DNA of 41,484 nt, from positions 1 to 41,484 of the IMG/VR virus record IMGVR_UViG_3300010885_057888, one strand, 5' to 3'. How positions within the stretch are numbered: the stretch's first letter is position 1; the number at the start of each line of letters is the position of its first letter. Of this stretch, positions 1 to 41,484 are shown in pieces. This DNA is from a virus. The notes beneath the pieces were generated by a model. The model was not told where the DNA came from. It saw only the letters and a list, made by a program, of their open reading frames with translations, and made no database searches. The translations under genes were made by a program, and so were the position numbers.

Positions 1-96
1 CCCGTACCCTTGAATGAGTTGATCCGCCTTGCGGTGCTCTTGGACGCGGTTGAGGTACAGGTCTTTGACTTCTTGTTTTCCGTGGTATGCAATCAT
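1..96 (-). CDS. Second copy of the 5' end of the Ala/Tyr-repeat protein gene (partial, at window edge)
   Basis: This is the first 32 codons of the gene at 40798-41457, present a second time because of the terminal repeat. The ATG is at 96-94 and overlaps the TGA of the upstream gene (95-93) as ATGA. In the circular genome it is the same gene, not a duplicate. It matters because the overlap shows that the early operon continues without a break from position 93 into position 41361. Confidence 0.85.
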   Translation of the reverse strand, partial: MIAYHGKQEVKDLYLNRVQEHRKADQLIQGYG

Positions 97-123
97 GTTT
101 TTTGGTGTTGATGTTTGAACTGA
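1..123. repeat. Direct terminal repeat (left copy), circular join
   Basis: These 123 bases are identical to the last 123 bases of the window (41362-41484). The Ala/Tyr-repeat gene starts inside the repeat and reads without interruption across the join, and genes on both sides keep the same strand and the same overlap style. The simplest reading is that the assembly of a circular (or circularly permuted) genome overlapped itself by one assembly word. A true short terminal repeat on a linear virion molecule is less likely, because the repeat sits inside a gene. Confidence 0.93.
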
Positions 124-1114: not shown

Positions 1115-2343
1115 GCGGCGAGTTGGATGGAGGCTTGCTGGGTGAGCTGCGCTCGAAGCAGCGATCGGGCGAATCCGCAGGGGACCGCATTTCCGATCTG
1201 GCGCACTTGCTCTTTCACCGTGCCGCTAAACTTGTATCCAGGTGGAAAACCTTGTGCGGCGGCTAACTCATGGGAGCGCAGCATGCGGAAGTGGACTTCT
1301 CGACCGTCGAACTGCACGAGTCCGAAACGGTCGTTACAAGTCACTGTTGGAAGAGGCTCTGTGACTTCGCGGGATTTCCCGTTTCCGTAATACTCCACCA
1401 CGAGAGCAATAGCCCCCGAAGTCGTCACGGTTGGCGCCGGCTGCGACACATGGCGCAGAATTCCCGCGCTATGCTGTGGAAGAAGGTACGCCACACCAAA
1501 AGCTCCACCTTTGGCTGTTGTGACCGTTGGAAGCGGATCGAGCGCGGAGAGAGATCGACCACCGTGTTCCATGGCCACAATCACCGGCGATCCACGAAAG
1601 CGCGCAAGACCCTCGTTGATTCGCGCCATTGTCTTTGGAGCCAGAGCCTTCTTGCGGTCGCTGATTGCTTTGGTCGGAATGCTCCAGTCGATTACAGCAT
1701 CGGCAGCACTTCGCCATCGAGGAAGGCCAAACAAGTTGGCATCGGGTGAATGGGTGGCATCAGGCCAGACAATTCGGCGCCGGCCACGAACCGCCTGGAC
1801 GAATAAGCGTCGCCGAGTGGTCGGATCTCCATAGTCAGCAGCGCACAGAATCTTCCAATCGACCGTGTACCCAATCGCTCGCAATGTCTCAACCCAGGCA
1901 AGGAACGTCCTGCGCTTGTTGGCTTGAATTGGTTTCCCGTTAGATCCGAGCGGTCCCCACTCCAGAAACTCAGGCACGTTCTCCACCATCACCACCGAAG
2001 GCAGGAGAGCTTCAGCCCAGCGGGTGACACACCACGCGGTTGCGCGGGATTGGTCCAGCATCGGTTTACCGCCACGAGCCCGGGAATGGTGCGTGCATTC
2101 AGGGGAGGCCCAGAGCACGTCGAGCTTGCCATCTGAAAACAGGTGGCGAGGGTTGAGCGAATCAACCGAGGCGCAGTAGTGACGGGCCTCGGGATGGTTC
2201 GCGCTGTGCGTCTCCACGGCGCGCTCCCAGTGATTTACCGCGGTCAAATCCACGCGATACCCGAGAGATTCAGCGGCTTGCACAGCCCCAGTGGATGTCC
2301 CACCCGCTCCGCAAAATAGGTCCGCGATGGTGAGGGTTTTCAT
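1111..2343 (-). CDS. DNA (cytosine-5) methyltransferase
   Basis: A 410-residue enzyme transferring methyl from S-adenosylmethionine to cytosine C5 in DNA. Visible motifs are motif I DLFCGAGG (residues 8-15), motif IV with the catalytic Cys83 in the context SPEC (the usual form is PPC), motif VI ENV (121-123), a TTRRR motif VIII, and a C-terminal motif IX/X region with EQVRQIGNAVP. The length is normal for the family. I place the start at the ATG at 2343, because it forms an ATGA overlap with the upstream PP-loop gene; two further codons upstream are also open. No cognate restriction enzyme is nearby, so it is an orphan enzyme, probably protecting phage DNA or altering expression. Confidence 0.92.
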   Translation of the reverse strand: MKTLTIADLFCGAGGTSTGAVQAAESLGYRVDLTAVNHWERAVETHSANHPEARHYCASVDSLNPRHLFSDGKLDVLWASPECTHHSRARGGKPMLDQSRATAWCVTRWAEALLPSVVMVENVPEFLEWGPLGSNGKPIQANKRRTFLAWVETLRAIGYTVDWKILCAADYGDPTTRRRLFVQAVRGRRRIVWPDATHSPDANLFGLPRWRSAADAVIDWSIPTKAISDRKKALAPKTMARINEGLARFRGSPVIVAMEHGGRSLSALDPLPTVTTAKGGAFGVAYLLPQHSAGILRHVSQPAPTVTTSGAIALVVEYYGNGKSREVTEPLPTVTCNDRFGLVQFDGREVHFRMLRSHELAAAQGFPPGYKFSGTVKEQVRQIGNAVPCGFARSLLRAQLTQQASIQLAA

Positions 2344-3200
2344 ACTCCACACATCCCTTCACATTCAGCCATGAAGCCGAGGGTTCCTTGGTCTCCGCGT
2401 TCCTCTGCGGTTCGGAAGTCAATTTCCTCAAGCGGGATGCATGACCGGTGCAGGTATTGAAGACTCCTCATCCCATTTCGATGGGCCAAGTTCTGGCTGC
2501 GAAGCATTCGATCTATCTCGACGGCCCGCGCGAACTCTGCGGAATTGTTCTTTAGCTTCTGCCATTCAGCATTGCTCTTGTACGGGCAGAAAACGCACGC
2601 CGACCTTTCAACGGTGTGAGGAACGCCGTAATCGCTGAGCCACTTAATGCAGTGTCGGCGCGTCATCTCCATTTCGATGAGCGGGAAAAGGGGCTTTGCG
2701 TGACCTTTCCTTGGTCCGTCGTTAAATGAACGGGTGACACGACCAGCGCGCCCACATTCCTCCAGAGACAACCCGAACAGTTGATTGACGACGACATTCT
2801 TTGGCCATCTTTGGCGCGGCTTAAGTCCCAATATCTCTCGACGTATAGCACCCTCCACGACGTCGACTTTAAAATCAGACGTGCAGCGTCTAGGCATTAT
2901 TGCGATGACTCCAGTGGATTGGTTGAACGTAAAGGAGGGAATGTTGGAATGCCCTTTCCTATGCGATCTTCCTGTAGTAATCGCATCTCCAAGCCTCCCA
3001 GCCGTCCTAACCAGAACGGGGAACGACGGGGCAACCTCTGCGATCAGCCAGTTTAGATGGTCATACACAGCCTTAGGCTCCTCTTGGACATCCGCGAAGA
3101 TCGCGCAGTCGACAGGCGGAATAATCCCCTTGTGAATCATCAGTGCGACGACTGTGCTCTGCACTCCGGCACCCAGGTTGAGGACTCGATAAGTTCTCAC
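2340..3200 (-). CDS. PP-loop ATPase, PAPS reductase-like (adenine nucleotide alpha hydrolase superfamily)
   Basis: A 286-residue protein. A modified PP-loop is at residues 10-16 (GAGVQST), an RRCTSDFK element at 104-111 resembles the substrate/phosphate loop of phage PAPS-reductase-like proteins, and CVFCPY (202-207) is a likely metal or thiol site. It starts with GTG in a GTGA overlap with the upstream small gene, and its stop overlaps the methyltransferase start. Phage members of this family are usually called phosphoadenosine phosphosulfate reductase, but true sulfate reduction is doubtful. Its tight coupling to a DNA methyltransferase suggests nucleic-acid modification or a counter-defence role (inference). 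Confidence 0.8.
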   Translation of the reverse strand: MRTYRVLNLGAGVQSTVVALMIHKGIIPPVDCAIFADVQEEPKAVYDHLNWLIAEVAPSFPVLVRTAGRLGDAITTGRSHRKGHSNIPSFTFNQSTGVIAIMPRRCTSDFKVDVVEGAIRREILGLKPRQRWPKNVVVNQLFGLSLEECGRAGRVTRSFNDGPRKGHAKPLFPLIEMEMTRRHCIKWLSDYGVPHTVERSACVFCPYKSNAEWQKLKNNSAEFARAVEIDRMLRSQNLAHRNGMRSLQYLHRSCIPLEEIDFRTAEERGDQGTLGFMAECEGMCGV

Positions 3201-5539: not shown

Positions 5540-5838
5540 TTGACACCTCCGTTCACCCGGTTGAGTTCGCGGGCGAGAATGCGGGATTGAAGATCGTGAA
5601 CGTCCTCGGCCTTCCGTTCGCGCCAAACCGCCACGCGAGCGGCCAGTGTCGTCCTGGCGTTTGCATCCCCAGTCCGCCAAATCCATCGAAGGCCAGGAAC
5701 GCAAAAGTTTCGGAAGTATTGCCGCCACTCCTGCTTCTCCCGTTTGCTCGGGTAGTTCTTCACGAACTGTTGGGCGAGACTGTCCGAGATGGACAGCGTC
5801 TCAAAGAAGGTCGGCGTCGAGTTGATCGGTGTTGGCAT
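5536..5838 (-). CDS. Small protein, unknown function
   Basis: A 100-residue soluble protein, basic and aromatic-rich in the middle (EWRQYFRNFCVPGLRWIWR), with a helical C-terminal half. ATG 5838 has AAGGA at good spacing. It ends in NGGVK, where the final codons also carry the GGAGGTG site of the next gene. No family is recognised. Confidence 0.65.
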   Translation of the reverse strand: MPTPINSTPTFFETLSISDSLAQQFVKNYPSKREKQEWRQYFRNFCVPGLRWIWRTGDANARTTLAARVAVWRERKAEDVHDLQSRILARELNRVNGGVK

Positions 5839-5856: not shown

Positions 5857-6195
5857 TTACAGACTGTGAAGCTTGCTCTTCAGCCCGAGGCCTTCGCCGG
5901 TCACGGCATCGGATTTGGTCAGTGCGCCAGTCAGACTGTCAGAGCTGGGCGGCATAGCTGCGCCGGTGCCTCGGAACTTGTCGATGGCTCCACTCAGGCT
6001 GTCGTGCAGACCCTGGCGGAGATCGAGCTTCGCTTGGTCGCGCATGCCGATCAGTCCCATCTGGGCCCGCGTGGCATCACCCAGGAAACCATCGTCGAGA
6101 CCGAATTGCTTCAGGGTGTCCATTCGGCCTTGCAGATCCTGCTTGGACACAGGGGCAAACTTCTGGATTAGGCTTGAGTAGGGGTTGTTGTACAT
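5857..6195 (-). CDS. Small protein, unknown function
   Basis: A 112-residue protein. ATG 6195 lies one base after the RHH gene stop. The N terminus (MYNNPYSSLIQKFAPVSKQ) and the helical, Gly/Asp/Lys-rich remainder resemble small virion-associated proteins more than enzymes, but it sits second in the early operon. The upstream extension of the frame overlaps the RHH gene and is not used. Function unknown. Confidence 0.6.
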   Translation of the reverse strand: MYNNPYSSLIQKFAPVSKQDLQGRMDTLKQFGLDDGFLGDATRAQMGLIGMRDQAKLDLRQGLHDSLSGAIDKFRGTGAAMPPSSDSLTGALTKSDAVTGEGLGLKSKLHSL

Positions 6196-7037: not shown

Positions 7038-7232
7038 TTATTCGACCAATTGAAAGCCATTCTGATCCAGTCTTGGAATCAGTTTCCAGCCATCCAACGT
7101 TCCAATTTCGCATTTCCCAGTCCATCTGTCGATTCGGGCCATGCCGTTAGAATTAGTTCTCACATCGTATCGGAGCATAATCACCGCTGCTGCCAGCCAG
7201 AGTGAGGAGATAACCAGAATTGTCTTGTTCAT
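7038..7232 (-). CDS. Small membrane-anchored protein
   Basis: A 64-residue protein from ATG 7232 (a GTG two codons upstream is possible). One N-terminal hydrophobic helix (TILVISSLWLAAAVIML) is followed by a compact polar domain with a RYDVRT...RIDRWTGK pattern typical of small periplasmic or membrane-anchored proteins. It diverges from the integrase with only 37 bp between the starts. Function unknown; possibly expressed in the lysogen. Confidence 0.6.
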   Translation of the reverse strand: MNKTILVISSLWLAAAVIMLRYDVRTNSNGMARIDRWTGKCEIGTLDGWKLIPRLDQNGFQLVE

Positions 7233-7269
7233 CAGCACATCAAACCGAATCCGGCGATTGAATCAACTC

Positions 7270-8595
7270 ATGAACGCTCCATCGTTTCAGTTCCACGACA
7301 AGCAATACGTGCTGTGTCGACAGCCTCGCGACCGGGAATTGCCCGAGGCTGAACAGGCGACACGTCCCTGGTACATTCGATACCGGCGCCCGGACAATCT
7401 GGTCTGGGGATGGAAGCGCATCGGGGCCGCCAGCGAGCGTCCCGCCGACCTGATCGCACGCGCCAAAGCATTCCTGAAGGGGTTGGAAGAGCATCGATCG
7501 GGGATCGACCGTTACCTGGACGGGGTTGCAGATCGCCGCGTCACTACGATCAATCAGATTGCGACCCTGTACCAAGCCGCCGGATGTCCTGATCGCAACG
7601 GCAATCCTCGCACTGGTGACCGACTCGATGAGCAGACCAAGCACCTGGCAGGAGCGCTGGCATTCTTTGGGGCGCTGTCGCCGCGCGCCATCGGTCCCGC
7701 TGACTGCTTGGAGTATCGCACGTGGAAGCGGTCGCATCTGGCCTATCAAGCTTCGGGATCCGTGCATGCCGGCGCCCGGACTTGCGAGCTGGATCTCTCC
7801 GCTCTGGCCAACTGCCTCCAGTGGGCGGTCCTGACTCGGCGCCTCGACGTCAATCCGCTCACCAGTCGACCGGCCCTGCGGGATTCCGACGCCATCGAGC
7901 ATCACCACCGTTACCAACCGGAGAGTGACGAGGAGCTGCACAAGCTGGCGGGTTGGTGCTTCGCCTCGGACTCGTGGGAAACACGCGTCTGCGGCGCCCA
8001 GATCCTATTCCACGCCATGACTGGGCTTCGCTCCGGGGAGAGTGCGTGTATGGAATGGCCGGCCGAGAATCGATCCTACAACGCCGCGGGGATGCGTCAG
8101 GTCTGCCGCCCCGACGGCGTCGAGGTGGAGTGGCTCCATGTGCGGCGCGAGAAGCGGGGGATAAATCCCGTGGTCCGCGTCCATCTAGCCCTTCGACAAT
8201 TCCTTGCGGCTTGGCATGCTCACGCGAGCCAACATGTGAAGAGCACTTACATGTTCGCCCAGGCATCCGGGGATCCATCTCCGAGCGATTTCACCCGGAC
8301 GTTGAATCAAGCCGCCGAAGCCATCGGCAGCCCCAAGAACCGATTCGGGGAGTCGAGGAGGACGGCCCATGCGCTCCGAGGCTACTACGTCAGCGTCCGT
8401 CGTGATGCCGGGGTCGCCGACATCATGATTGCCGCCGAGCTGGGGCAGGGCGGGGGAGATCGCCTCATCCGTTCCACCTACGGGGCGCCCGACGCCTTCG
8501 CCTCGGGGCGACTGGACTGGATGCCGACGACTGAACCTGCATGGTCGATCCTTTCGAGACCCAGCAACGTGGTTCCAATGCAAGCTGGCCTCTGA
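7270..8595 (+). CDS. int: Tyrosine recombinase (phage integrase)
   Basis: A 441-residue enzyme for site-specific integration and excision at attP/attB. Catalytic residues are visible: Arg254 in TGLRSGE, His367 and Arg370 in HALRGYY, and Tyr404 in RSTYG. The preceding 200 residues match the arm-binding and core-binding layout. I start at ATG 7270, since the frame upstream is antisense to the small membrane gene; the long form would begin at 7141. The carboxy half resembles integrases I associate with Verrucomicrobia. The attP site lies directly downstream. Confidence 0.93.
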   Translation: MNAPSFQFHDKQYVLCRQPRDRELPEAEQATRPWYIRYRRPDNLVWGWKRIGAASERPADLIARAKAFLKGLEEHRSGIDRYLDGVADRRVTTINQIATLYQAAGCPDRNGNPRTGDRLDEQTKHLAGALAFFGALSPRAIGPADCLEYRTWKRSHLAYQASGSVHAGARTCELDLSALANCLQWAVLTRRLDVNPLTSRPALRDSDAIEHHHRYQPESDEELHKLAGWCFASDSWETRVCGAQILFHAMTGLRSGESACMEWPAENRSYNAAGMRQVCRPDGVEVEWLHVRREKRGINPVVRVHLALRQFLAAWHAHASQHVKSTYMFAQASGDPSPSDFTRTLNQAAEAIGSPKNRFGESRRTAHALRGYYVSVRRDAGVADIMIAAELGQGGGDRLIRSTYGAPDAFASGRLDWMPTTEPAWSILSRPSNVVPMQAGL

Positions 8596-8601
8596 TTTGG
8601 C

Positions 8602-8619
8602 GCATACAATTTAGCATAC
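8602..8619. repeat. Integrase arm-type site pair, left (GCATAC x2, 12 bp apart)
   Basis: GCATAC at 8602-8607 and 8614-8619. The same pair with the same 12-bp period recurs at 8857-8874 on the other side of the tRNA segment. An 11-bp word TACAATTTAGC (8605-8615) also recurs at 8841-8851. Paired repeats on both flanks of a core are what arm-binding sites of a tyrosine integrase look like. Confidence 0.6.
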
Positions 8620-8634
8620 ACGAACCCACAGCCA

Positions 8635-8664
8635 CCAAAGGATGCCAAAGGATGCTAAAAGATT
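8635..8664. repeat. 10-bp tandem repeat in attP arm
   Basis: CCAAAGGATG twice exactly (8635-8644, 8645-8654), followed by a degenerate third unit. A 10-bp period places the units on one face of the helix, as for cooperative binding by an excisionase or bending protein. Confidence 0.6.
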
Positions 8665-8757
8665 GGACGGAAGCTCAATTTGGGGTCACAAATCGAACTC
8701 CAAAGCGTTTGTCCAACAGGTGGTTGCAGTGCAAGTGATGCGGAATCAGTGAGTTAC

Positions 8758-8797
8758 GCCGACGTGGTGGAATGGCAGACACAGGGGACTTAAAATC
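8758..8797 (+). other. attP core: 5' half of tRNA-Leu(UAA), not a complete tRNA
   Basis: Forty bases match the 5' half of bacterial tRNA-Leu(UAA): acceptor strand GCCGACG, D arm (GTGG...CAC), 5' strand of the anticodon stem (GGGGA), and the anticodon loop CTTAAAA with TAA. The match breaks two bases into the 3' strand of the anticodon stem, and no T arm or 3' acceptor follows. This is the expected trace of an attP whose crossover lies at the anticodon stem-loop of a host tRNA-Leu gene. Here the phage restores the 5' half instead of the usual 3' part. Confidence 0.72.
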
Positions 8798-8849
8798 AAT
8801 CTGTGTCTAAAATGCCGACCTTGCGGTGCAGTGAGTTCTGTACAATTTA

Positions 8850-8881
8850 GCTCCCCGCATACATGGCAGCATACGGGGAGC
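8850..8881 (-). terminator. Hairpin ending the leftward late operon
   Basis: As RNA from the minus strand, GCUCCCCG pairs with CGGGGAGC, and the stem continues through five inner pairs including G-U wobbles around a 6-nt loop. It lies 29 bases after the last late gene (stop at 8911). The T tract is weak (TAAATTGT), so termination may be partial. The plus-strand RNA lacks the inner pairs, which fits a role for leftward transcripts. Confidence 0.5.
8857..8874. repeat. Integrase arm-type site pair, right (GCATAC x2, 12 bp apart)
   Basis: GCATAC at 8857-8862 and 8869-8874, matching the pair at 8602-8619 in sequence, orientation and spacing. It overlaps the terminator-like hairpin. Confidence 0.6.
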
Positions 8882-8910
8882 GAACTGTCCGGAATTCCCG
8901 GATGGTTGAA

Positions 8911-9171
8911 TCAGAGCTTCAGACCGTCGGCGGTGGGCTCGATCTTCGTGTTACTGGGATCCTTAGAGTTCGGATACGGATTTGCGATCGATCCTGGAAC
9001 TTGTTCATTGATGCGCTTCAGATCCATGCCAAGCCACATTACTGCTTCTTGCAGCTTGGTGATGGTGATGGATCGCTCCCTGCTGGAGGGAAGATCCTTG
9101 ACCCTTTGGATGTTGGCATCGATATCGCGTCTCAGTTCTTTGTTTGAGACGATTTCTTGTTCAGTGGTCAT
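8911..9171 (-). CDS. Acb2/Tad1-hairpin family protein, candidate anti-CBASS cyclic-nucleotide sponge
   Basis: An 86-residue protein. The core, residues about 28-52 (SSRERSITITKLQEAVMW, then LGMDLKR), is the Ser-Arg-Glu ... TKLxEAxMW helical hairpin that I recognise from phage Acb2 and the hairpin part of Tad1. The tail NPYP...IEPTADGL also recurs in such phage proteins. Acb2 binds cyclic di- and trinucleotides and so blocks CBASS effectors. It is the last gene of the late operon, with AAAGG before ATG 9171. Family assignment is strong by eye; ligand binding is inferred. Confidence 0.75.
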   Translation of the reverse strand: MTTEQEIVSNKELRRDIDANIQRVKDLPSSRERSITITKLQEAVMWLGMDLKRINEQVPGSIANPYPNSKDPSNTKIEPTADGLKL

Positions 9172-18795: not shown

Positions 18796-19220
18796 TTGTC
18801 CTTTGCTAAAGCAGATATCTGAAGCCGCGTAATCAGCTTCTTGTTGAGTTGCACGCGTCGACCTTTCCGGTCTGCGATCAATCGAAGCTGCTGCCAGTCG
18901 GGGACGCGGGCCTCAAACAATGCAATGATGGTTGCCAAAGCCAAAGGCGACTTGCTGTGCAGCTGATCGAAATAGAAACAATCGCCAGTATCGTCCCAAT
19001 AACTCCATCGATCATCGATGTCGCCCATGTGCCCTCGCCACCCAATTCCAACCGCCATCACTTCGCCCTTGATTGCAACGATTGCGCACGCTTGCTGAAC
19101 AATGTGATGCCGAAGCCAATGGCGCATCTTCTGTTCCGGCCAGGACGAAAACACGTCCGGTCGGCTCTCCAAGAGAAACTTGGATACTTCGCTCACCAGT
19201 TGATATTCAGGGAGGATCAT
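18792..19220 (-). CDS. Conserved phage protein, GNAT-like in outline
   Basis: A 142-residue protein. A central VMAVGIGWRG segment, a DCFYFDQLHS segment and a C-terminal LRLIADRKGR resemble the strand order of acetyltransferase-like proteins found near phage tail genes, but the acetyl-CoA pyrophosphate loop is not clear. The ATG overlaps the tail-fibre TAA by one base (TAATG), with GGAGG-like sequence absent. Function not established. Confidence 0.5.
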   Translation of the reverse strand: MILPEYQLVSEVSKFLLESRPDVFSSWPEQKMRHWLRHHIVQQACAIVAIKGEVMAVGIGWRGHMGDIDDRWSYWDDTGDCFYFDQLHSKSPLALATIIALFEARVPDWQQLRLIADRKGRRVQLNKKLITRLQISALAKDK

Positions 19221-20464: not shown

Positions 20465-22216
20465 TCACGCTTGAGCACCATCCCGAGGACTGGCTCCAAA
20501 CGTTTCGCAAACCACGTCGCGGACTACGATGCGCCCTTGAGTGCCCGTAAATACCAACTGGGTGAATCTGCCGTGCGTCTTGGGTCGGAAGCCGAGATCA
20601 ATCGTTTGATGCAGCTCGAGTGTGACTCCGTTGGCGCCGGGAAGGATGCCATCGGTTGGTAAGATTACCGCATAGTCTTCGCGATAGGGGTCGTGGAAAT
20701 CGTCGTTGACGTTGGTATTGATCCAGTCGGCGCGCCCGTATGGTCTTCGGTACTTGGTAGCTGAATAGTTGGCAATGGTCCCAATCGACCTCTCTTCGGA
20801 CACCCCATCCGCCCGGGCAGTGATGGCGCCCGCCGGCCACCATGTGCTTAGGCGGCATTGAACCTTTCCAAAACGCTTCCTTCCCGGCGCATTGCCGCCG
20901 TACCCACGCGTGACCAATTGGGTCTGAACAGAGGTGCTTGTGATGGCGCCGGAAACGTCCCCGGTTTGGTCAAGGTAACCGTCTTCGTACATGACCAAAA
21001 ATCCATCGACGCTCACAAAGCACAACCGGACCAAGCCAGCAATGGTGAATTTCACCCATTCACGAACCTTGATGCCATTGCCTTGATCGATGCCCGCCCA
21101 TTTCTGATTGACCGTGTCGTAGACAAGCACCGCATTGTTGACGGTGGATCCGTCGATCGGGACTGCAATGTAGACTCGATTGTCGTGACTGGCCGCGACA
21201 GCGCCCGAGGCGTTCTCCCAGTTGATCCGGTCGATCAAGGGTTGGATGTCTCTGGACACCGGCACATCCACGCCCTGCAGCTTATTCTGCTCGGTTTGCT
21301 TGATGCTGACAATCCCTCGTCGATGGGCCAGAAACCAAACATCGGATCCGACTTGCACGAAAGAGTTGGGGGCGTTGCAACCGTATTCCGTCGTGATCGC
21401 ATCCAGGGCGGCGTTGGCGGCTAATTCCGCATTGGTCCCGCCCACGTTGGTGACCACGTATATGGAGGTCTCTTTCGCCGCAATCAGGGTCTGATCGTTG
21501 AATCGGTACAGCGCCTTGAGACGATCAGAGGAGCCTTGGTTGATCTTGAAGCTGTTGTAAGCTATGGAACCTTCTAACACGTCGAATACCGTGCCAAAGT
21601 CGGAAACGAACACCGTGTCGACGTGTGCGGCGTCCGTGCGTCCATCCACCACAAACAGCCGGTTCTGGAAGTAAATACCCGTGCTGGCCGGTGGGATTGG
21701 GATGTTTGCTGGATCGTTGGTTGCCACCGGCAGGGTTTGCCATCCAGCTGACAGGCTGGTGCAGTAGAGTGGGTTCAGATCGGGTCCACGCAACATGACC
21801 AACCCATTGTAGGTCTGGATCATGCGAACAGATGACGGAATGGTTTCCCCGGTGGGCAATGCGATCTGCGACGCCAGCACGCCCGGTTTGGCTGCGTACA
21901 CTCCCCCGTTGGTGGCGATGATCAACCAACTTTCTCCGGAAATGGGATCACTGAAAAGTCCGGCACCGCTGACGTTGGAGTAAGGGAATATCAAACCCGG
22001 GTCACTGCCCAAGACATATTTGGAAGCCCAACTGACAATCCGGGTGCCTTGACGCGGTTCCGCCACGCCATTGGTAAACCTGAGATTGATCGCCTCGGAG
22101 ACTGTGCCGGGTTCCAATTGCCCCGGATCCCGACGCATATCCACGCCCAGGAAGTAAGGATCGCCAGCATCCGCTGGTGCATCGTCTCCTGTGGTGTACT
22201 GCCGGTAAAAGGGCAT
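20465..22216 (-). CDS. Tail stabilisation / hub protein, beta-propeller-like
   Basis: A 583-residue protein. The N terminus (GVDMRRDPGQLEPGTVSEAINLRF) and the repeated Tyr/Trp/Gly strands (residues about 100-400) resemble the propeller-type stabilisation or hub proteins that close the tail tube of P22-like and related podoviruses. It may also carry fibre docking. The gene lies between small neck genes and the tail fibre. Assignment by architecture and context. Confidence 0.65.
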   Translation of the reverse strand: MPFYRQYTTGDDAPADAGDPYFLGVDMRRDPGQLEPGTVSEAINLRFTNGVAEPRQGTRIVSWASKYVLGSDPGLIFPYSNVSGAGLFSDPISGESWLIIATNGGVYAAKPGVLASQIALPTGETIPSSVRMIQTYNGLVMLRGPDLNPLYCTSLSAGWQTLPVATNDPANIPIPPASTGIYFQNRLFVVDGRTDAAHVDTVFVSDFGTVFDVLEGSIAYNSFKINQGSSDRLKALYRFNDQTLIAAKETSIYVVTNVGGTNAELAANAALDAITTEYGCNAPNSFVQVGSDVWFLAHRRGIVSIKQTEQNKLQGVDVPVSRDIQPLIDRINWENASGAVAASHDNRVYIAVPIDGSTVNNAVLVYDTVNQKWAGIDQGNGIKVREWVKFTIAGLVRLCFVSVDGFLVMYEDGYLDQTGDVSGAITSTSVQTQLVTRGYGGNAPGRKRFGKVQCRLSTWWPAGAITARADGVSEERSIGTIANYSATKYRRPYGRADWINTNVNDDFHDPYREDYAVILPTDGILPGANGVTLELHQTIDLGFRPKTHGRFTQLVFTGTQGRIVVRDVVCETFGASPRDGAQA

Positions 22217-40801: not shown

Positions 40802-41457
40802 GCGGCGCGCAGAAGCTCCAGCAGTTTTTCGGATTGTCTGATGATCGCTGCTTGCTCGGCGGCGGCGTAGGCGGCGGCGTAGGCGGCGGCGGCGTAGGCG
40901 GCGGCGTAGGCGGCGTCGGCGTAGGCGGCGGCGGCGGCGGCGTAGGCGGCGGCGGCGCAGGCGGCGTAGGCGGCGGCGGCGGCGTAGGCGGCGTAGGCGG
41001 CCTGACGGGCACTCTTCCACTCGGTAATCGAGGGTTCGTCGCCCGCAATGCGGCGCTGATAAAGGTTCGCAACAGCCTGAATGGGCGCGGCGTTTTTCGC
41101 AAATTTCACCACCCCATCAGCGGGATCGACCAACAACCAGATGGCAAACTTGGGCCACACCATCGACAGGTCTGCACCTGGGCGAATGGCTGCTAGAAAC
41201 TGCTCGGGCCAAAGTCGCGCGTTTTCTTTCGGGAGTCGCTCGAACAAGTGTTCTTCGAGATGCGCAAGAACTACCGGGACTCCCAATTCTGATTCATAGT
41301 TGGAGTGTTTTCCGCTGTGTAGAGTGCAGCCAACCGCGCAGCCTTTTCCGTCTTCCCAATACCCGTACCCTTGAATGAGTTGATCCGCCTTGCGGTGCTC
41401 TTGGACGCGGTTGAGGTACAGGTCTTTGACTTCTTGTTTTCCGTGGTATGCAATCAT
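40798..41457 (-). CDS. Conserved phage protein with Ala/Tyr repeat tract
   Basis: A 219-residue protein. The N-terminal 145 residues form a conserved domain (YHGKQEVKDLYLNRVQEHRK, KGCAVGCTLHSG) that I know from many phages and prophages without a function. Residues about 150-203 are almost only Ala with Tyr every 3-5 residues (AAYAAAYAAAAYAA), encoded by a GC-rich minisatellite using GCC and TAC codons. The tract would form one long helix with a Tyr stripe. The tail is a short charged helix. The gene crosses the circular join. Confidence 0.75.
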   Translation of the reverse strand: MIAYHGKQEVKDLYLNRVQEHRKADQLIQGYGYWEDGKGCAVGCTLHSGKHSNYESELGVPVVLAHLEEHLFERLPKENARLWPEQFLAAIRPGADLSMVWPKFAIWLLVDPADGVVKFAKNAAPIQAVANLYQRRIAGDEPSITEWKSARQAAYAAYAAAAAYAACAAAAYAAAAAAYADAAYAAAYAAAAYAAAYAAAEQAAIIRQSEKLLELLRAA

Positions 41458-41484
41458 GTTTTTTGGTGTTGATGTTTGAACTGA
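41362..41484. repeat. Direct terminal repeat (right copy)
   Basis: Identical to 1-123. Together with the left copy it shows that the sequence closes on itself. Confidence 0.93.

Follow-up and report, generated by a model that had tools for sequence, protein, structure and literature searches.

A phage attachment site with the 5′ half of tRNA-Leu(UAA) next to a divergent tyrosine integrase gene

The window analysed here is the whole 41,484-nt stretch of the IMG/VR record IMGVR_UViG_3300010885_057888. On its + strand, at positions 8758–8797, it carries the 5′ half of a bacterial tRNA-Leu(UAA) gene, which breaks off just after the anticodon loop and lies downstream of an integrase gene (int). 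We consider it highly probable that this half is part of a phage attachment site (attP), that the phage would recombine in the anticodon loop of tRNA-Leu(UAA) of a Verrucomicrobiales-like host, and that it would rebuild the host gene with the 5′ half it brings along. The features on which the analysis draws are as follows.

1..123, + strand: terminal direct repeat, perfect, identical to 41362..41484; unit genome of 41,361 bp
7141..8595, + strand: tyrosine-recombinase integrase gene, 484 aa from the first ATG (7141), assigned by its phrog_1 match (E 4.3e-10) and motifs
8601..8619, + strand: CGCATACAATTTAGCATAC, candidate arm-type site on the int side; direct repeats D1 (79% identical to 8856–8874) and D3
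8758..8797, + strand: attP segment equal to nt 1–40 of tRNA-Leu(UAA), sequence GCCGACGTGGTGGAATGGCAGACACAGGGGACTTAAAATC; 40/40 against SXSK01000231.1
8777..8784, + strand: left arm of an inverted repeat (pair I4), AGACACAG, candidate core-type integrase site
8789..8795, + strand: anticodon loop CTTAAAA, putative crossover (overlap) region; identity stops 2 nt later
8801..8808, + strand: right arm of the same inverted repeat (pair I4), CTGTGTCT, in phage-specific DNA
8847..8884, no strand given: GC-rich hairpin (inverted repeat I1) where int and the leftward gene at 8911–9171 converge
8856..8874, + strand: CGCATACATGGCAGCATAC, candidate arm-type site on the far side of attP; partner in D1

The tRNA half, the integrase gene and attP

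The segment 8758–8797 was identical in 40 of 40 bases to nt 1–40 of the tRNA-Leu(UAA) gene in SXSK01000231.1, a Verrucomicrobiales MAG in which ARAGORN called the whole tRNA. When 84,980 species, each represented by one genome, were scanned for the exact 40-mer, this was the single match. Identity began at the first tRNA base and ended 2 nt beyond the anticodon loop; as the loop lies at 8789–8795, with the anticodon TAA at 8791–8793, the match covers the whole loop and 2 nt of the 3′ stem. Past nt 40, the host tRNA reads CCCCTGG and the window reads AATCTGTG. Chance is excluded: no other position in the window matched at more than 22 of 40 bases, and 60 sequences simulated with a first-order Markov model reached 26 of 40 at most. 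The match to the 5′ half of a bacterial tRNA-Leu(UAA), followed by divergence, had originally been noticed from the letters alone, and it is real.

Across the whole window, no tRNA or tmRNA gene was called, and the 3′ half of tRNA-Leu was absent from the rest of it. Rfam reported no tRNA at 8758–8797, as expected of a half. When window positions 8596–8797 were joined in silico to the 3′ half from the MAG, ARAGORN called tRNA-Leu(taa), so a whole tRNA is rebuilt, in silico only. The phage carries a fragment that runs from one end of the gene (nt 1–40, 100% identity) to a known crossover subsite, the anticodon loop. It is the 5′ part, the reverse of the usual polarity, with the crossover placed by the end of identity.

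The integrase translation, for which the ATG at 7270 is a likely alternative start, reached phrog_1 as its sole family; its match to Pfam PF00589 (E 0.068) was under the Pfam cut-off. It contains the catalytic residues R (TGLRSGE), K, HxxR (HALRG) and Y (STYG), and on the family match and these residues together we identify the product of 7141–8595 as a divergent tyrosine integrase. The tRNA half starts 162 nt downstream of int on the same strand, which agrees with the original prediction of an integrase gene upstream of the half. Searches run without a positive control yielded no relatives of the integrase in IMG/VR or among phages, and no match in 388 genomes of the host phylum or 50 of the family. 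An AlphaFold model of the lone sequence was unusable (mean pLDDT 40.6).

Judging from the perfect 123-nt direct repeat at its ends, the window is probably a complete phage genome, circular or terminally redundant. Genes for a DNA methyltransferase and a PAPS-reductase-like protein lie to the left of the site, and genes for an SU10-type major capsid protein and a DnaB helicase to its right. Because the genome ends are redundant and phage genes lie on both sides, the half is attP and not a prophage boundary, which bears out its earlier designation. The proteins scanned included no recognisable repressor or excisionase, a weak absence since most genes were unassigned. The phosphoadenosine phosphosulfate reductase-like gene (2340–3200, − strand; phrog_424, E 9.5e-29) adjoins the DNA methyltransferase gene. 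A second record, IMGVR_UViG_3300027736_000194 (L044, L046; 28,126 bp), was 100% identical to window positions 19210–40244 (21 kb compared) and represents the same virus assembled from another sample; by extrapolation it spans approximately 12763–40888 and stops short of attP.

Within attP, the inverted repeat 8777–8784/8801–8808 is perfect, with 8-bp arms centred on the anticodon, one in the tRNA half and the other in phage-specific DNA. Such arms are as expected of core-type integrase sites flanking an anticodon-loop overlap, and we regard them as candidates. The status of the putative arm-type sites is suggestive, because the repeat density at the attP flanks was equalled by 23 to 27 of 824 window segments (~3%). 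The hairpin at 8847–8884 had a predicted fold of about −17 kcal/mol on the + strand and −30 on the − strand; it is without a T-run and was not scored as a terminator. It is possibly where int transcription stops on the unintegrated genome. Integration would part it from int, as it lies beyond the crossover.

Predicted integration and occupied sites in the host family

In the model that we favour, the window represents a tailed phage, temperate or at least integration-capable, of a Verrucomicrobiales-like host, with 8758–8797 as the bacterial-homology part of attP. Recombination between attP and attB by its tyrosine integrase would take place in the anticodon loop of tRNA-Leu(UAA) and would push the promoter and the 5′ half of the host gene out to one prophage end, while at the other end the phage 5′ half and the host 3′ half would form a whole tRNA-Leu(UAA) behind int and its 162-nt downstream region. 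The expectation that the rebuilt tRNA would have a phage-derived upstream region follows directly from the int–attP geometry, and occupied sites of the same polarity were found in the family of the MAG.

The assignment to a Verrucomicrobiales host is approximate, because tRNA sequences are conserved; it draws on the single exact 40-mer and on similar GC content (0.565 for the window, 0.56 for the MAG contig). No integrated copy of the window phage was found in 388 phylum genomes and 50 family genomes, searched without a positive control. The junction pattern GNNGAAATGGCAGACRCRNNGGACTTAAAAATC, too narrow outside the family, had no match in the 388 phylum genomes, and a capsid-family search of host genomes gave no match, with the control genomes negative too. 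The MAG's own tRNA site is already beside another integrase, so its empty attB was unseen. A DUF1501-like gene beside the tRNA was considered as proof of an empty site and dropped, such genes being expected to be numerous in these genomes.

We searched 50 genomes of the MAG's family with the whole tRNA and found 5′-only fragments of tRNA-Leu(UAA) in five of them (G408, G419, G393, G397 and G389). Four of the five fragments (those in G419, G408, G393 and G397) depart from the tRNA directly after TTAAAA, that is, at the loop where identity ends in the window. Both ends of an element are displayed in G419: on contig C154, a 5′ half (22151–22188) and a whole tRNA (1902–1987) point the same way at a distance of 20.2 kb, the fragment being the upstream one, and an integrase begins directly beside the whole tRNA, on its upstream side. 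This element resembles an island rather than a phage: it carries DUF5906, Ig-domain and FGE-sulfatase genes, and phage structural genes were not recognised in it. Its two tRNA copies (L036:1902–1987 and L037:9651–9688) also have in common the ~25 nt that precede the tRNA, so that the element may carry along a part of the tRNA promoter region. The layout in G389 was as in G419, over 6.4 kb, with no integrase recognised by the profile used.

A related integrase lay directly upstream of, and divergent from, the tRNA at nine of 30 retrieved tRNA-Leu(UAA) loci (two of the nine being weak or short matches). None lay downstream at any of the 30 loci, an absence that is indicative only, because the profile was seeded from upstream cases. 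Integration by the 5′ half happens at tRNA-Leu(UAA), by other elements of the MAG's family. These Verrucomicrobial islands (G419, G408, G393, G397, G394, G001 and others) share with the window the same tRNA, the 5′ half and the anticodon-loop crossover, and the element lies 5′ of the rebuilt tRNA, as it would in our model. They differ in that their integrase is of another lineage and divergent from the tRNA, whereas int of the window points at the half.

A motif like GTAAGTNNTTG recurred within ~40 nt upstream of tRNA-Leu(UAA) at six loci (L006, L020, L024, L028, L029 and L035), where an island on the 5′ side of the tRNA is present or seemingly was once present. This motif may be an integrase site or a promoter element of the islands.

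Precedents for the 5′-half arrangement

The original prediction presented the 5′ half as a reversal of the usual arrangement. The reversal stands: of the 3919 islands in Islander, 3760 have a 3′ fragment and 159 (about 4%) a 5′ fragment (PMC4383910). Its novelty does not, given the T7-like cyanophages, including P-SSP7, and pTN3. The Islander class of 5′ tDNA fragments fits the expected layout, with a displaced 5′ fragment upstream and a whole tRNA at the other end (PMC4383910); it is a catalogue class covering several lineages, whereas the window is known as an unintegrated attP only.

The closest architecture was that of the T7-like cyanophages (P-SSP7, S-TIP37 and relatives), which share with the window the order of int and, within ~100–160 nt on the same strand (~95 nt in the cyanophages), a tRNA-Leu 5′ half of ~39–42 nt (PMC8776855). 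In P-SSP7, int ends at 5768 and the 5′ half of tRNA-Leu(UAA) starts at 5860 on the same strand and, as in the window, stops at the UAA anticodon loop. PCR showed that P-SSP7 and S-TIP37 integrate at the host tRNA-Leu, S-TIP37 needs int and attP to do so, and stable lysogens of the two phages did not form (PMC8776855). The cyanophages are phages of another type than the window, in which an SU10-type capsid gene and a DnaB helicase were recognised, and they infect another host phylum; P-SSP7 has a TATAAT promoter before its half, whereas the window is without a recognisable one. There was no detectable pairwise similarity between the window integrase and that of P-SSP7 (BLASTP E 0.19, a 13-aa match only), and no integrase homology was seen that would place the window with the P-SSP7-type int–attP modules.

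Among archaeal elements, integrases of the pTN3 type use the 5′ half, and the integrase promoter then drives the rebuilt tRNA; the same review describes 5′-half use as rarely met in bacteria (PMC8371274). In pTN3, the rebuilt tRNA-Leu is cut off from its original promoter (PMC5495485). Here too attP shares the 5′ half of tRNA-Leu, over 41 bp (PMC8371274, PMC5495485). pTN3 differs from the window as an archaeal plasmid with attP inside the integrase gene, which is split upon integration, and with a CAA anticodon. The window does not show tRNA-dependent lysogeny, which combines a short, non-rebuilding core with a phage tRNA (PMC10865867): its 40-nt core rebuilds the gene in silico, and it has no phage tRNA.

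In IMG/VR, 80 contigs with a related 5′ sequence were retrieved, of which 73 had a whole tRNA and seven the 5′ half only. On four of these seven, an integrase gene ended 93–110 nt upstream of the half on the same strand. Taken together, the cyanophages, Islander, pTN3 and the IMG/VR contigs make the 5′-half arrangement a known minority kind. The window phage adds a case to it, and the principle is already in the literature.

Several individual sequences were also inspected. On IMGVR_UViG_3300044712_002706 (L186; 76.7 kb), a tRNA-Leu(UAA) 5′ half around 11140 is preceded by int, a strong hairpin and a TATAAT box, in this order; this contig is another member of the same arrangement, and its tRNA sequence is not cyanophage-like. 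Two viral contigs with a 32-nt block (L002 and L003) were unrelated phages with whole tRNA genes. The Bcep43 candidate (H7) proved to be a whole tRNA-Leu: Burkholderia phage Bcep43 (NC_005342.2, 17806–17892; L244:1801–1887) has a complete tRNA-Leu(UAA) by ARAGORN that is unannotated in the record.

Alternative readings and expression of the rebuilt tRNA

It is very improbable that 8758–8797 is what is left of a degraded phage tRNA gene, or a captured one, instead of an att site. Whole tRNA genes do predominate among the viral contigs with such a 5′ sequence (the 73 of 80 above), but in the window no trace of a 3′ half follows the 40 bases, identity ends at the anticodon loop as at other att sites, an integrase gene is adjacent and the identity to the bacterial tRNA is perfect. 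A less remote alternative, although still an unlikely one, accepts the att site and holds that the phage is not classically temperate: integration would be transient or rare, and the half would mainly keep the host alive during it. This would accord with the failure of its closest architectural precedents, P-SSP7 and S-TIP37, to form stable lysogens on integration (PMC8776855), with the lack of a recognised repressor or excisionase and with the lack of a prophage copy in the 388 phylum and 50 family genomes. Most genes are unassigned, however, which makes the repressor's absence weak, and as the integrase has no detectable similarity to that of P-SSP7, the lifestyles need not match.

Two readings concern how the rebuilt tRNA would be transcribed under the preferred integration model. 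We give even chances to a tRNA promoter of the phage's own within the 162 nt between int and the half, with int and the tRNA expressed independently. In P-SSP7, TTGTTA-16-TATAAT stands 19 nt before the half, and in L186 a hairpin and then TATAAT lie between int and the half; these boxes suggest a tRNA promoter of the element's own. No such promoter was recognisable in the window, but a scan for sigma-70-type promoters has no power to decide here, because Verrucomicrobial tRNA-Leu genes themselves score no better (6 to 8 of 12 consensus positions, against 7 of 12 for the window). The original prediction instead proposed that read-through from int would make the rebuilt tRNA in the lysogen, coupling integrase expression to an essential tRNA, which we hold to be less likely than not. 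Read-through is possible because no terminator-like site lies between int and the half, 162 nt apart on the same strand, and the strong hairpin at 8847–8884, past the crossover, would be parted from int by integration. Against it, a lysogen that transcribed int all the time would bear a cost; nor is read-through a general requirement, since int of the Verrucomicrobial islands is divergent from the tRNA.

The analysis ties a phage without a detected close integrase relative to a likely Verrucomicrobiales host, and adds a second, sequence-divergent integrase for a tRNA half at which islands, too, have settled repeatedly in the MAG's family. More speculatively, the tRNA-Leu 5′ half may be a convergent target of divergent integrases, those of cyanophages, Verrucomicrobial islands, the window phage and archaeal plasmids, perhaps since the 3′ half of this class II tRNA is, owing to its long variable arm, a poor attP segment. 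Elements that use the 5′ half have to supply the transcription of an essential tRNA, which makes them natural test cases for how integrated elements spare their host.
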